From: an uncultured Granulosicoccaceae bacterium
Lineage (GTDB): Bacteria > Pseudomonadota > Gammaproteobacteria > Granulosicoccales > Granulosicoccaceae
DNA: 64,000 nt
NCBI GenBank assembly: GCA_938020525.1
Contig: CALIHW010000005.1
Location: forward strand, 1-64,000
Direction: 5' to 3'
Position 1 is the first letter of the stretch, and the number at the start of each line of letters is the position of its first letter. The notes under the pieces are model-generated. The model was not told the DNA's origin. It did not search any database and was given only the letters and a program-made list of their open reading frames with translations. Positions 706 through 50,977 of this stretch are shown here, piece by piece. The position numbers and the translations under genes were made by a program.

Positions 706-2379
706 GTGGAAGTGTTGTATTTACTCGATCTCATCGGTACCGCCGTGTTCGCCTATTCCGGCGCACTCGCGGCACGTGGTCATGGCTATAATATATTGGG
801 TGTGCTTTATATTGCCCTGTTAACCGCCGTTGGCGGTGGTACAGTGCGCTACCTTCTGCTACAGACACCTGGTTTATTCTGGTTCGAATCAAGTGGCTAT
901 GCGTGGGTTGTAATTGCCGCGGTAAGCCTCAGCTATGTGCTTAAGGTGCGCACCAATTCTATTCCGTTTTATTTGCTCGACAGCTTTGCATTGGCGGTGT
1001 TTATCGCGATCGCTTTTAACGCTGCAATCAGTCAGGGTTTTTCCACCCCTGTTGCTATTGGAGTAGGTACCATAACAGGCATCGGTGGTGGCCTGATTCG
1101 AGACGCTATTACCAGCCAGCAACCACAGGCATTGTCTGATCCCGTCTACCCGGGCTTGATATTCTCAGGTTGCGCGGGTTGCATATTAGGGCTTCTCACA
1201 GGCTATCCCATGTGGCCCCTGTCAATTGCTTTCGTATTAACAGTTGCAGCAACCTCAATCGTTATGCGTGAACGTTTGCCTGCAGTTGTTGCCAAGCCTC
1301 CTGACGCTTTAATTGCCAGTTCATTTGCAAACGCAAGCTCAGAAAAAAAACACAGAGGGGAGTCGATACCCAGAGCAATAGCAAAGGCGGCGACGGTTCT
1401 TATTATGGTGCTTGCAATAGGATTTTATTTTTTATCACCATCGTCCAATCAAGCAATTGCCATGAAATCGACCGCTAACAAGTTGCCGTTGGTTACTGCA
1501 TCCTCAGCCGACAGGCTATTTAATAAATACGTTGCTAACGCTCAAACGCAATTGGAAAAAAATGACCTCACTGGAGCCACCCAATCAATCAAAAATGCAA
1601 CTTTACTAAAACCGCAGCATCCACTCATCGATCGGTTGGATGAAGAGCGCGCGCTTTTAGACAGCTACCTGCAACATATTGCTGTGGCAGAGACTGCCTA
1701 CGACGCAGATGATTTTCAAGCCATGCAATACTCGCTTTCACAGGCTGCGGTTTACGATCGTCGTGATCACCGCTACACCAATTTACTAACCGCCTTGAGC
1801 GCACGCTTAAACCAGATAGATATCGACAAAAAGCAACAGGCAATAGCTGAATCCGGCACCGAGTTTCACATCACAAGTGCCAGGTATTATTTGCAAATGG
1901 GTAATACGGAGGCAGCCGGACGCGAGCTTACAAAGGCAGAATCTTACGGGCTGCAGAAAACGCTAATTGCAAACCTTAGGGCTGAATTAAGCTCCAAAGT
2001 GAAACAAGAGTCCAGCAACGCGACACCGGCATTAAATATTCCGAAAGACAAGCTAAGCCCACAGGAACTACAGTACGCTGAGGCGCAATTTAGTCAATTA
2101 CAGAAAGCCATCGAGCTTAGAAATTTAGCCGCCTTGAAAATATTGACGACTAAAAACAATGAAAAATACAATCTATTTGATCAGCTGTTTAATCGATATG
2201 TTCAATTTGATGTGCATCTTACGGAGCTTACAAACCAAAAGAAAAACGTGTCTGTGCAGCTGGAGCTTGAGAGAATGAGACTACCCAGTGGCAACTACAC
2301 CTATCCATCTAGCGAGTATGGTGTGATCGCGTTAAGTCTGAAACTGACAGATGAAGGCTGGACTAAAATACAATGGTAA
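706..2379 (+). CDS. TRIC/YicG-type membrane protein fused to a helical repeat tail
   Basis: A 557-residue protein with two parts. Residues 1 to about 200 match the UPF0126/TRIC (Gly_transporter) fold, which has two copies of a three-helix unit. Each copy carries a glycine-rich motif: GGGTVRYLL near residue 45 and GGGLIRDAI near 127. Family members are normally only about 200 residues and act as small cation or glycine channels. Here a further membrane helix (about 226-246) leads into roughly 300 mostly helical residues that look like TPR-type repeats (about 265-430), followed by a short mixed C-terminal domain. The start is GTG, 10 bases after AAGGA. The next gene begins 6 bases after the stop, suggesting an operon with the SUMF-fold lipoprotein. 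The N-terminal assignment is firm; the role of the tail is unknown. Confidence 0.8.
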   Translation: MEVLYLLDLIGTAVFAYSGALAARGHGYNILGVLYIALLTAVGGGTVRYLLLQTPGLFWFESSGYAWVVIAAVSLSYVLKVRTNSIPFYLLDSFALAVFIAIAFNAAISQGFSTPVAIGVGTITGIGGGLIRDAITSQQPQALSDPVYPGLIFSGCAGCILGLLTGYPMWPLSIAFVLTVAATSIVMRERLPAVVAKPPDALIASSFANASSEKKHRGESIPRAIAKAATVLIMVLAIGFYFLSPSSNQAIAMKSTANKLPLVTASSADRLFNKYVANAQTQLEKNDLTGATQSIKNATLLKPQHPLIDRLDEERALLDSYLQHIAVAETAYDADDFQAMQYSLSQAAVYDRRDHRYTNLLTALSARLNQIDIDKKQQAIAESGTEFHITSARYYLQMGNTEAAGRELTKAESYGLQKTLIANLRAELSSKVKQESSNATPALNIPKDKLSPQELQYAEAQFSQLQKAIELRNLAALKILTTKNNEKYNLFDQLFNRYVQFDVHLTELTNQKKNVSVQLELERMRLPSGNYTYPSSEYGVIALSLKLTDEGWTKIQW

Positions 2380-2385
2380 TATCAA

Positions 2386-3576
2386 GTGTCGACTAACAAC
2401 TCTCTTTCAAACCATTTCAGAGTGGCGATGCTCGGGTTGCTCTTGCTGCTGAATGGATGTCACAGTGAGCCCTCAACAAGCAGCTTCGTACTACCGGAAG
2501 GTATTCGTCAGGCGGCCGCTATAAATCCCGTGGCGTTGTCACTTGAAATTCGAGTTAACAATGGACAACCACAAGTATTTAGAGGTCAGGGAACAAACGA
2601 CTCATGGATTGTACCCCTTGAAGTACCCGCATCATCGAACGTCACTTTGATAGTCACCTGGATAGAAATTGTCGAACAGGAACGTCTGGAGTTGGCGAAT
2701 CAGAGCATTGAGTTCACCACCGATGCAGACGCTATCGACGTTTCCCTCGGCACCGACTACATCACTTCTGGCGCCGGTTTTGACTATGATAGTGACGGAA
2801 TTTCGAATCTTGATGAGCGAATTAACGACACAAACCCATTGATTGCCGATACGGGCACTTTTGTTGTTAATGAGCCAGAAACCGTTCCAGTCTCTTCGGG
2901 GTGTTTTGCGATGGGCAGCCCGGAGACGGAGCCACTTAGAAAGCTCGATGAAAATCAGCACGACGTTTGTGTTAACGACTTTGCAATCGGTAAGTACGAA
3001 ATCACCTTCGAACAATATGATCAGTTTGCCGTACTTACCGAAAGACAAAGACCGGACGATCGCGGTTGGGGTCGCGGTGCGCGGCCAGTGATTTTGGTGA
3101 GTCATACAGACGCGACCGCCTATGCTCAGTGGCTTAGTGAGCAGACGGGTAAGAATTACCGGCTACCTACAGAAGCTGAATGGGAATACGCTGCCAGAGC
3201 CGGAACAACCACCCCATTTAGTACAGGCCAATCGATCTCAGAGGAACAGGCAAATTTTAACGCAAGTGTCACCTACAACGGCGGGCAGCTCGGCAGTCGG
3301 GCGCAAAGCACAGTTCCAGTCGGTTCTTATGCTGCAAACCCGTGGGGTATTCACGATATGAACGGCAATGTCTGGGAGTGGACTTGCAGTGCTTATTCCA
3401 TCGAATACACCGGGGCAGAGCAGAATTGCGACCCCGATCCAAATACCGATACCTATGCCGAACGGGGCGGTGCGTGGGACACACCGCCAGAAGATCTTCG
3501 AAGTGCAAGACGAATGCGTAATACCCGGGATCGTTTCTTTTTCTACCTTGGGTTCAGGATTGCACTGGAAGAGTAG
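2386..3576 (+). CDS. Lipoprotein with SUMF1/FGE-sulfatase fold, non-catalytic
   Basis: The 396-residue protein starts at GTG 2386 with a signal peptide ending in a lipobox, LLNGC, so Cys25 is probably lipidated. Residues about 130-150 hold an Asp-rich, thrombospondin-3-like calcium motif (DYDSDGISNLDE). The C-terminal 230 residues are a SUMF1 fold with the hallmarks RLPTEAEWEYAARAG and MNGNVWEWT. The Cys pair that defines a true formylglycine-generating enzyme (GGSxxCxxSYC) is missing; the equivalent stretch reads GGAWDTPPEDLRSARR. It is therefore a binding or structural SUMF domain on the periplasmic face of a membrane, not a sulfatase activator. It lies 6 bases downstream of the TRIC-like gene and may be coupled to it. 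Confidence 0.82.
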   Translation: MSTNNSLSNHFRVAMLGLLLLLNGCHSEPSTSSFVLPEGIRQAAAINPVALSLEIRVNNGQPQVFRGQGTNDSWIVPLEVPASSNVTLIVTWIEIVEQERLELANQSIEFTTDADAIDVSLGTDYITSGAGFDYDSDGISNLDERINDTNPLIADTGTFVVNEPETVPVSSGCFAMGSPETEPLRKLDENQHDVCVNDFAIGKYEITFEQYDQFAVLTERQRPDDRGWGRGARPVILVSHTDATAYAQWLSEQTGKNYRLPTEAEWEYAARAGTTTPFSTGQSISEEQANFNASVTYNGGQLGSRAQSTVPVGSYAANPWGIHDMNGNVWEWTCSAYSIEYTGAEQNCDPDPNTDTYAERGGAWDTPPEDLRSARRMRNTRDRFFFYLGFRIALEE

Positions 3577-3608: not shown

Positions 3609-4316
3609 TTATCGCGGCAGTGGCACAGTTAGAGTAACGGGTACCGTTGCACCACCACCCTCGCCAACACCGGAATCGGAATCCCCACCACCGGAGGATG
3701 CAAGTACCCCGAGTACTAATAAACTCACGGCACCCCACAGCAGAAGATTGGGTTTTTCAGAGTCATTTGCAATAATAGCCTGGTCTGTAGCGCTGTTGAT
3801 CGAGTCTCGTTGATTGTTGTTTTCACCGGCACTTGTACTAAAAGCATCAGACCCGGTGGAGGCAGGCTGCGTCTCCACGGTATTGGTGATTGCCGTATCG
3901 CTAGCTGGAACTGATAAGGTGCGTTTAAACGGCTCGAACGGAAAGCCGCGCAGCACCTTGTTACCGCCGGTATCTATCACTAAAAAATAATAGTCGAGAT
4001 ATTTTTGTTCGACTGTAGTTGAAGTTGATGCGATAAAATCCTGAGTATCTGGTACCGACTGCATAAGAATTGGTCGGTAGTCGTCCTGCAAGTTGCTTTT
4101 TATCATCAGGTTTACGCTCTGTATCCCCTGAAGATCAAAGGCACGGACCTTAAAAGACTGAGCCTCACCGGCCACTCCTTCAGAGATTGCAACATGCGTG
4201 ACTTCCGGGGGATCAAGATCGAGCCCTGCAGCGTGCACCGCAGTGGTTGCAAACTGCTGAAGCAGGAGCGTAATTACACACAACCACCTGGTTGCTTTGC
4301 TGTTTGTTGTCACCAT
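3609..4316 (-). CDS. Secreted/membrane-anchored protein with Ig-like domain
   Basis: A 235-residue protein of unrecognised family, convergent with the SUMF lipoprotein. It has a signal peptide (cleavage probably after AVHAA). Residues about 35-130 resemble a bacterial Ig-like or fibronectin-type sandwich: DPPEVTHVAIS at the start, then alternating strands and a GGNKVLRGFPF strand. A Ser/Thr/Asn-rich linker follows. A hydrophobic segment near residues 185-205 (LLLWGAVSLLVLGVLASS) is followed by a glycine-rich tail, GGGDSDSGVGEGGGA. This layout suggests a periplasmic domain held by a C-terminal anchor. Function unknown. Confidence 0.65.
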   Translation of the reverse strand: MVTTNSKATRWLCVITLLLQQFATTAVHAAGLDLDPPEVTHVAISEGVAGEAQSFKVRAFDLQGIQSVNLMIKSNLQDDYRPILMQSVPDTQDFIASTSTTVEQKYLDYYFLVIDTGGNKVLRGFPFEPFKRTLSVPASDTAITNTVETQPASTGSDAFSTSAGENNNQRDSINSATDQAIIANDSEKPNLLLWGAVSLLVLGVLASSGGGDSDSGVGEGGGATVPVTLTVPLPR

Positions 4317-50810: not shown

Positions 50811-50977
50811 CTAGGAGCTTGTCCGAGAATGAATGATCTACTGCGAAAGCGATCTTTTGGCCAGCTATTACGATCGATATCGTTAGATATGAATAACTAT
50901 TCGCCTCAATCGATCGAAATATCTGACTCAAAATCTCACTTTCTCGCTACGACCCTCATTCTCGGACAAGCTCCTAG
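50811..50977. mobile_element. MITE-like element, copy 2
   Basis: The same 159-bp element as at 49-215, here 50815-50973, flanked by CTAG (50811-50814 and 50974-50977). It lies between the DUF4166 gene and the cox regulator, ending 94 bases before the regulator start. Near-identity between the copies suggests recent movement. Confidence 0.85.

Follow-up and report, generated by a model that had tools for sequence, protein, structure and literature searches.

The stretch of DNA analysed here, referred to as the window, covers positions 1 to 64,000 of contig CALIHW010000005.1 from the assembly of an uncultured Granulosicoccaceae bacterium (GCA_938020525.1; genome G000 in the following). Close to its start, three genes lie side by side: a fusion gene that joins a TRIC-type channel to a further membrane helix and a C-terminal tail, a gene for a lipoprotein with a SUMF domain and, on the opposite strand, a gene for an Ig-like protein, SML. 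Their features are as follows.

706-2379, + strand: fusion gene, GTG start, 557 residues; TRIC domain, linker, eighth membrane helix, helical stalk and NTF2-like domain
712-1266, + strand: TRIC domain (PF03458, twice), residues 3-187; seven hydrophobic segments and a fold match to prokaryotic TRICs
832-852, + strand: first GGGxxR motif, residues 43-49 (GGGTVRY), in which the acidic residue after R is absent
1084-1104, + strand: second motif, residues 127-133 (GGGLIRD), intact
1267-1377, + strand: linker, residues 188-224 (37 residues), with seven K and R against four D and E; low model confidence
1378-1434, + strand: eighth membrane helix, residues 225-243, from hydropathy; modelled as helical with pLDDT <50
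1504-2016, + strand: helical stalk, residues 267-437, from the model; TPR-like in shape and homologous to the stalk of kinase paralogues
2053-2376, + strand: NTF2-like C-terminal domain, residues 450-557, from a fold match; common to the kinase paralogues
2386-3576, + strand: SUMF lipoprotein, with a signal sequence, a lipobox-like LLNGC (Cys25), a LIPN domain and a SUMF domain
3609-4316, - strand: SML, with a signal-like N-terminal hydrophobic helix, an Ig-like beta-sandwich and another hydrophobic helix at the C-terminus; the gene converges with that of the SUMF lipoprotein

Domain composition of the fusion protein

The original prediction of a TRIC-type channel, an extra membrane helix and a tail within a single frame of 557 residues is borne out. 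The protein matches PF03458 in two stretches (whole-protein E 1.2e-28; best stretch, residues 6-79), with a score of 99.2 bits against a curated cut-off of 23.5 and with 66.1 and 47.7 bits for the two repeats, and its nearest solved structure by sequence is the prokaryotic TRIC 5wuf (residues 3-183, E 1.2e-26). At a threshold of at least 1.3 for the 19-residue hydropathy mean, the protein shows seven membrane segments within its TRIC part and an eighth at residues 225-243. Finally, the TRIC part of the structural model, which is of low confidence (block means 44-81), superimposes on seven prokaryotic TRIC entries with Z 21.1-23.6 over 185-197 residues.

The tail is for the most part modelled at good confidence. 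Seven helices form the stalk (residues 267-437; block means 81-96 for residues 271-430), which is followed by an alpha+beta domain (residues 450-557) that the original prediction had missed, as it had the convergent gene at 3609-4316. The best fold match of this domain is 3d9r_D (Z 10.4, 103 aligned residues, rmsd 2.8), with more NTF2-like entries ranking below it. Its fold is also like that of the accessory domains in PBP5 of Enterococcus faecium, Csd6 and RsgI9 (S1C-NTF2; Z 8.9-9.8); these, however, occur with other partner domains and show no convincing sequence relation, and a shared fold does not imply a shared function. Searching solved structures with tail profiles on the sequence level yielded nothing convincing, and a Pfam scan of the fusion protein gave no match to a kinase domain. 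DUF2852 (E 0.012) and PAS_2 (E 0.36) matched the tail below the Pfam cut-off, and these weak matches were set aside.

The tail had been described as TPR-like; the seven-helix stalk of the model may have such a shape, and profile searches bear the description out only in part. In the seven tails that we collected from homologous loci and the window, none of the TPR models matched significantly (TPR_19, E 0.025 in one tail; TPR_14, best E 0.062 in two; TPR_8, E 0.53 in one), which speaks against a TPR array proper. The TPR structure of P58(IPK) aligns to the tail model with Z 9.1 and an rmsd of 16.8.

Conservation of the fusion

As a possible refutation, the original prediction had named a sequencing error that joins two frames. 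Such a frame error, and likewise a chimeric assembly, can be dismissed, because the same fusion is kept in one frame in five further genomes: L039 (G006), L040 (G008; its first dozen residues are out of frame), L042 (G017), L043 (G010) and L044 (G002). In a sixth homologue, L041 (8209-9972, G004), a single in-frame TAA separates TRIC and tail, and the tail frame restarts about 30 bases after this stop with its own ATG, ahead of the membrane helix. This split may represent a real fission or an assembly error, and in this organism the channel and the chassis may function as two individual proteins; being split, L041 was omitted from the structure alignment. Together with the window, the fusion is thus found in seven genomes, with six one-frame copies and one split copy. 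All homologues are derived from MAGs, and five sequences compared to the protein of the window are 34-55% identical to it. An eighth copy, in G007, has decayed to a TRIC fragment with a stop, which is followed within a few hundred bases by the apparent start of a lipoprotein, leaving no room for a tail.

Overall, the locus is present in 8 of 48 Granulosicoccaceae genomes, namely in 7 of the 14 genomes of the window's genus and in G017 from another genus; the remaining seven genomes of the window's genus, whose assemblies are 80-98% complete, have no PF03458 match. Three of the eight copies are damaged, through the stop in G004, the loss of the tail in G007 and the out-of-frame start in G008, so either some genomes do not retain the fusion intact or their assemblies contain errors. 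Given this narrow distribution and the damaged copies, one might regard the fusion as a passing event without a function of its own that has survived by chance in a few relatives. We consider this very improbable, since frames that persist at 34-55% identity, a conserved three-gene cassette and flanks that differ between the genomes point to long-term selection. We conclude that the fusion is a real and conserved architecture of single origin.

Similar fusions to this tail were not seen among the PF03458 matches listed for our sample of the class Gammaproteobacteria. Three frames there exceed 400 residues (G131, G154 and G233), and we examined these together with a 346-residue frame from G337: in three of the four, TRIC lies C-terminal to a stretch without Pfam match, while the frame of G131, if read from its first start codon, is of an ordinary length of 223 residues.

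Channel residues of the TRIC head

In its membrane part, the fusion resembles the prokaryotic TRIC/UPF0126 proteins SaTRIC, CpTRIC and RsTRIC, with which it shares seven predicted membrane helices, a GGG motif in each of TM2 and TM5, the pore phenylalanines and the lock in the C-half. Assigning pore and lock residues according to how far they lie from these motifs, we found both motifs, the phenylalanines at the pore positions (Phe 15 and Phe 99) and the cytoplasmic-side lock of the C-half (D92-R132-D133-Y148) to be kept in all seven fusions. For SaTRIC, the closed state is described as locked on the cytoplasmic side by D99-R139-D140-Y155, with N13-S53-N54-Y70 of the N-half unlocked (PMC5477506).

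Unlike the known prokaryotic TRICs, which are described as membrane domains of about 210 residues (PMC5477506), the fusion adds an eighth helix, a stalk and an NTF2-like domain, and the acidic residue of the first motif is gone. The residue following the first GGGxxR is acidic in none of the seven fusions (Y, N, H, G, G, S and S), as opposed to all 20 distinct stand-alone TRICs in a small and non-random set of 21 rows (L026 and L163 being the same gene), where it is D in 18 and E in 2. An acidic residue at this position is common but not strictly defining for TRIC, since SaTRIC does without it: it has N54 there and yet conducts (PMC5477506). Nevertheless, the altered first motif could denote a changed or lost channel.

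A second deviation concerns position 137, which is N in 5wuf and corresponds, by distance from the second GGG, to N144 of SaTRIC, reported as an ion site near the three-fold axis (PMC5477506); it is S in six fusions and G in one. Taken together with the first motif, this would suit a head that merely anchors the chassis in the membrane or oligomerises it as a trimer and for which transport no longer matters. We find this rather improbable, given that the GGG motifs, both phenylalanines and the C-half lock are retained throughout, that position 137 also varies in stand-alone TRICs, and that the asparagine in the first motif of SaTRIC does not abolish conduction. In our reading, the pore would be open to the outside and its gate would lie in the C-half, which continues into TM7, the linker and helix 8.

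As a side observation, two genomes of a sister genus, G019 and G022 (L162, L163 and L165), each encode a pair of divergent stand-alone TRICs, and the lock is altered in some of these; in L163, for example, Q replaces D133 and N replaces Y148.

The tail as a family-wide chassis

The tail of the fusion is far more widespread than the fusion itself. A profile of its NTF2-like domain (A2) matches 47 of the 48 Granulosicoccaceae genomes, and 15 of 369 genomes in the class sample (four of them Granulosicoccaceae); among the 398 genomes of the phylum sample, it matches one, the window's own. Viewing up to 1,500 bases upstream of the 27 matches in the class sample, we found a TRIC head in one case, that of the window; SML lies beside 18 of the 27, the window's genome included. 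In the family, the 107 matches comprise the gene of the window, three fragments that were left out (G019:C210, G020:C66 and G061:C29) and 103 tail genes, with L050 dropped as the same gene as L086. These 103 genes divide into 59 with a kinase head, 6 TRIC loci, 7 stand-alone tails, 30 with other or cut heads and 1 chain of caspase, NTF2-like domain and SML.

Several of the rows with other heads are cut by contig ends; L176 and L181, which fall inside the long-kinase clade of the tree described below, are probably cut kinases. Four of the other heads were scanned and gave no Pfam match. In L124, L126, L129, L131, L136, L140 and similar proteins, the N-terminus is long and disordered-looking, with an acidic motif (E/D-S-M-F-D-F-L) and a proline-rich stretch, followed by an Ala/Glu-rich coil and the NTF2-like end; SML adjoins them, and often a LIPN lipoprotein. 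The caspase chain (L156:3838-5475, from G066 of the same family) combines a PF00656 domain, an NTF2-like domain and SML in one protein.

The genome of the window itself encodes three further tail carriers: a Ser/Thr kinase (C59), a longer kinase (C160) and a short protein (C201). Residues 341-557 of the fusion match a kinase of the same genome with E 2.9e-16, and a profile comparison of its stalk with seven kinase stalks gave a probability of 91.4 (E 9e-7). Transmembrane Ser/Thr kinases such as G000:C59 and L046 thus share the membrane helix, the stalk and the NTF2-like domain with the fusion, and often the adjoining SML; they differ in having a kinase head instead of a channel, and the SUMF lipoprotein lies beside none of the 59.

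To place the TRIC tails among their relatives, we used a tree of 103 NTF2 domains over 119 columns, in which the window was included and one kinase row (L153) was left out as too short. A branch with a support of 96/98 sets the seven TRIC tails apart from all other rows, which requires one change, and it recurs in 94% of 200 bootstrap trees. In this alignment of few columns, the TRIC clade emerges from an unresolved fork, which it shares with kinase clades and with the other-head rows of the family. Ranked by mean tree distance, the next 18 rows consist of kinases throughout, and the closest 15 of these come from the same genus and G017. On these sequence grounds, the TRIC-bearing tails have one origin, probably through a head swap on a kinase chassis; its direction, TRIC replacing the kinase, is not fixed by the tree and is suggested by kinases being both the commonest head and the nearest rows.

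This kinship also bears on the topology. A kinase domain has to lie in the cytoplasm, and in all seven kinases checked it is separated from the tail by the most hydrophobic segment, so the tail should be periplasmic. TRIC proteins have seven helices and a cytoplasmic C-terminus, and an eighth helix is therefore needed to put the tail of the fusion into the periplasm. In the linkers of all seven fusions, K and R outnumber D and E.

The cassette partners

In agreement with the original prediction, the gene next to the fusion encodes a SUMF lipoprotein; its start at 2386 is separated by 6 bases from the stop of the fusion gene. The FGE-sulfatase/SUMF domain of the lipoprotein spans residues 163-393 and is preceded by a TSP3-like DYDSDG stretch (residues 133-155, by eye). 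An active formylglycine-generating enzyme can be ruled out: the catalytic cysteine pair of FGE lies in the C-terminal region, and the protein of the window has no cysteine after residue 348, nor do the five others have one in the aligned region. Like GldK/PorK and PvdO, it carries a SUMF domain in an exported protein, GldK/PorK also being named lipoproteins; unlike them, it carries a LIPN domain, and it scores far below the cut-offs of the GldK and PvdO models.

The model of SML has a mean pLDDT of 63.7, with block means of 85-94 for residues 41-110, and consists of an Ig-like sandwich and a C-terminal helix. Its best Foldseek match is a peptidylarginine deiminase (E 6.4e-6), followed by Ig-type chains.

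The order of fusion, SUMF lipoprotein and convergent SML is found in the window and in four of the six other loci (L039, L040, L042 and L043), while in L044 and L041 the contig ends before the full cassette. Comparing the first 14 kb of the window to the fetched flanks of the homologous loci, we found no shared genes at E 1e-15 outside the cassette, save for one match of 31% identity at different distances.

Of the two partners, the lipoprotein follows the channel. A LIPN protein with a SUMF domain lies beside five of the six TRIC rows, the sixth being cut, and beside none of the 96 kinase, stand-alone and other-head rows, which implies that head and lipoprotein vary together. Elsewhere, 13 profile-matched LIPN proteins that we scanned have TSP3, CBM9 or CBM96-like stretches, some of them below the cut-off. 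By contrast, the commonest neighbour of the chassis is SML and not the SUMF protein. SML shares the fetched locus with all 7 stand-alone tails, with 27 of the 30 rows with other or cut heads, with 4 of the 6 TRIC rows and with 27 of the 59 kinases.

A further locus of the window's genome, G000:C201, encodes an 840-residue protein with four Calx-beta stretches (L047:2893-5415), adjoining SML and a stand-alone tail gene. Its resemblance to LIPN is weak (BLAST E 1e-4) and without a profile match, and it was not counted as a LIPN protein.

A possible mechanism of control from outside the cell

The initial suggestion of a channel linked to an interaction platform gains from the stalk and NTF2-like domain, from their periplasmic location by the topology argument and from the conserved cassette with the SUMF lipoprotein. 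It needs revision in that the tail is not peculiar to the channel but is a family-wide chassis, mostly with Ser/Thr kinases, and ends in an NTF2-like domain. Accordingly, it seems to us about equally probable as not that the fusion is a head-swapped member of this chassis whose TRIC channel is controlled by the envelope, with gating set from outside. The architecture is well supported, whereas gating, substrate and partner contacts are inferred.

In such a channel, the eighth helix would return the tail to the periplasmic side, on which the tails of the kinase paralogues should lie as well. There, stalk and NTF2-like domain would meet the membrane-anchored, Ig-like SML and the lipoprotein. The C-terminal domain of the latter, which is exchangeable and of the SUMF type here, might detect a ligand or the state of the surface. 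Via helix 8 and the linker, the signal could then reach the TRIC bundle and switch the cytoplasmic gate between open and closed, so that the flux of a cation (K+, by homology) or possibly of glycine would be set from outside; in the kinase paralogues, a signal of this kind would lead to phosphorylation instead. We count the L156 chain, which unites the NTF2-like domain and SML, in favour of this reading; the presence of SML in only 27 of the 59 fetched kinase loci and the pLDDT of helix 8 (<50) speak against the gating reading.

The fusion could instead be a glycine transporter with an assembly tail, which anchors it to envelope partners for placement or stability and has no part in signal gating. 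UPF0126 genes are important for glycine utilisation in 11 bacteria and are predicted to encode a glycine transporter, as a review has it (PMC12173739), and Pfam's name for PF03458 accords with this. Still, we deem this unlikely, if worth keeping in mind: the same chassis bears kinases and other heads, which suggests signalling and not a transporter accessory, and the solved prokaryotic relatives are described as conducting cations (PMC5477506).

Extending the idea of an externally gated channel to the whole family, we tentatively propose, with less confidence than for the fusion itself, a trans-envelope receptor kit of the Granulosicoccaceae. In this kit, exchangeable outputs (kinase, TRIC and possibly caspase) would sit on the stalk-NTF2 chassis and be coupled through SML to lipoproteins with exchangeable C-terminal domains (SUMF, CBM9 or TSP3), and the fusion would be a ligand-gated TRIC with its gate on the cytoplasmic side.

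To our knowledge, it is not settled what bacterial TRIC channels do natively or how they are controlled. The natural joining of such a channel to a chassis on which kinases are the commonest head points to control from outside and brings the tail, the Ig-like SML and the SUMF lipoprotein to the fore as candidate TRIC regulators to examine. Such channel-on-chassis fusions occur in some marine bacteria and may be controlled from outside the cell. They also draw attention to receptor-like proteins across the whole family in which the heads have been exchanged; in the open-licence literature searched, we found no description of these proteins, of the TRIC fusion or of the set of kinase, NTF2-like and SUMF proteins.

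A repeated palindrome at the contig start

Apart from its genes, the window contains a palindrome, about 167 bases long and bounded by CTAG, at positions 49-215 (arms 49-97 and 167-215) and again around 50811-50977; one copy thus lies upstream of the fusion gene. A 19-base motif of its arm has 95 matches in the genome with at most one mismatch, compared to none for the reversed control. The motif forms 13 pairs that are 142-143 bases apart, and many other matches lie within 160 bases of a contig start. The element resembles a high-copy MITE and seems to interrupt the assembly.
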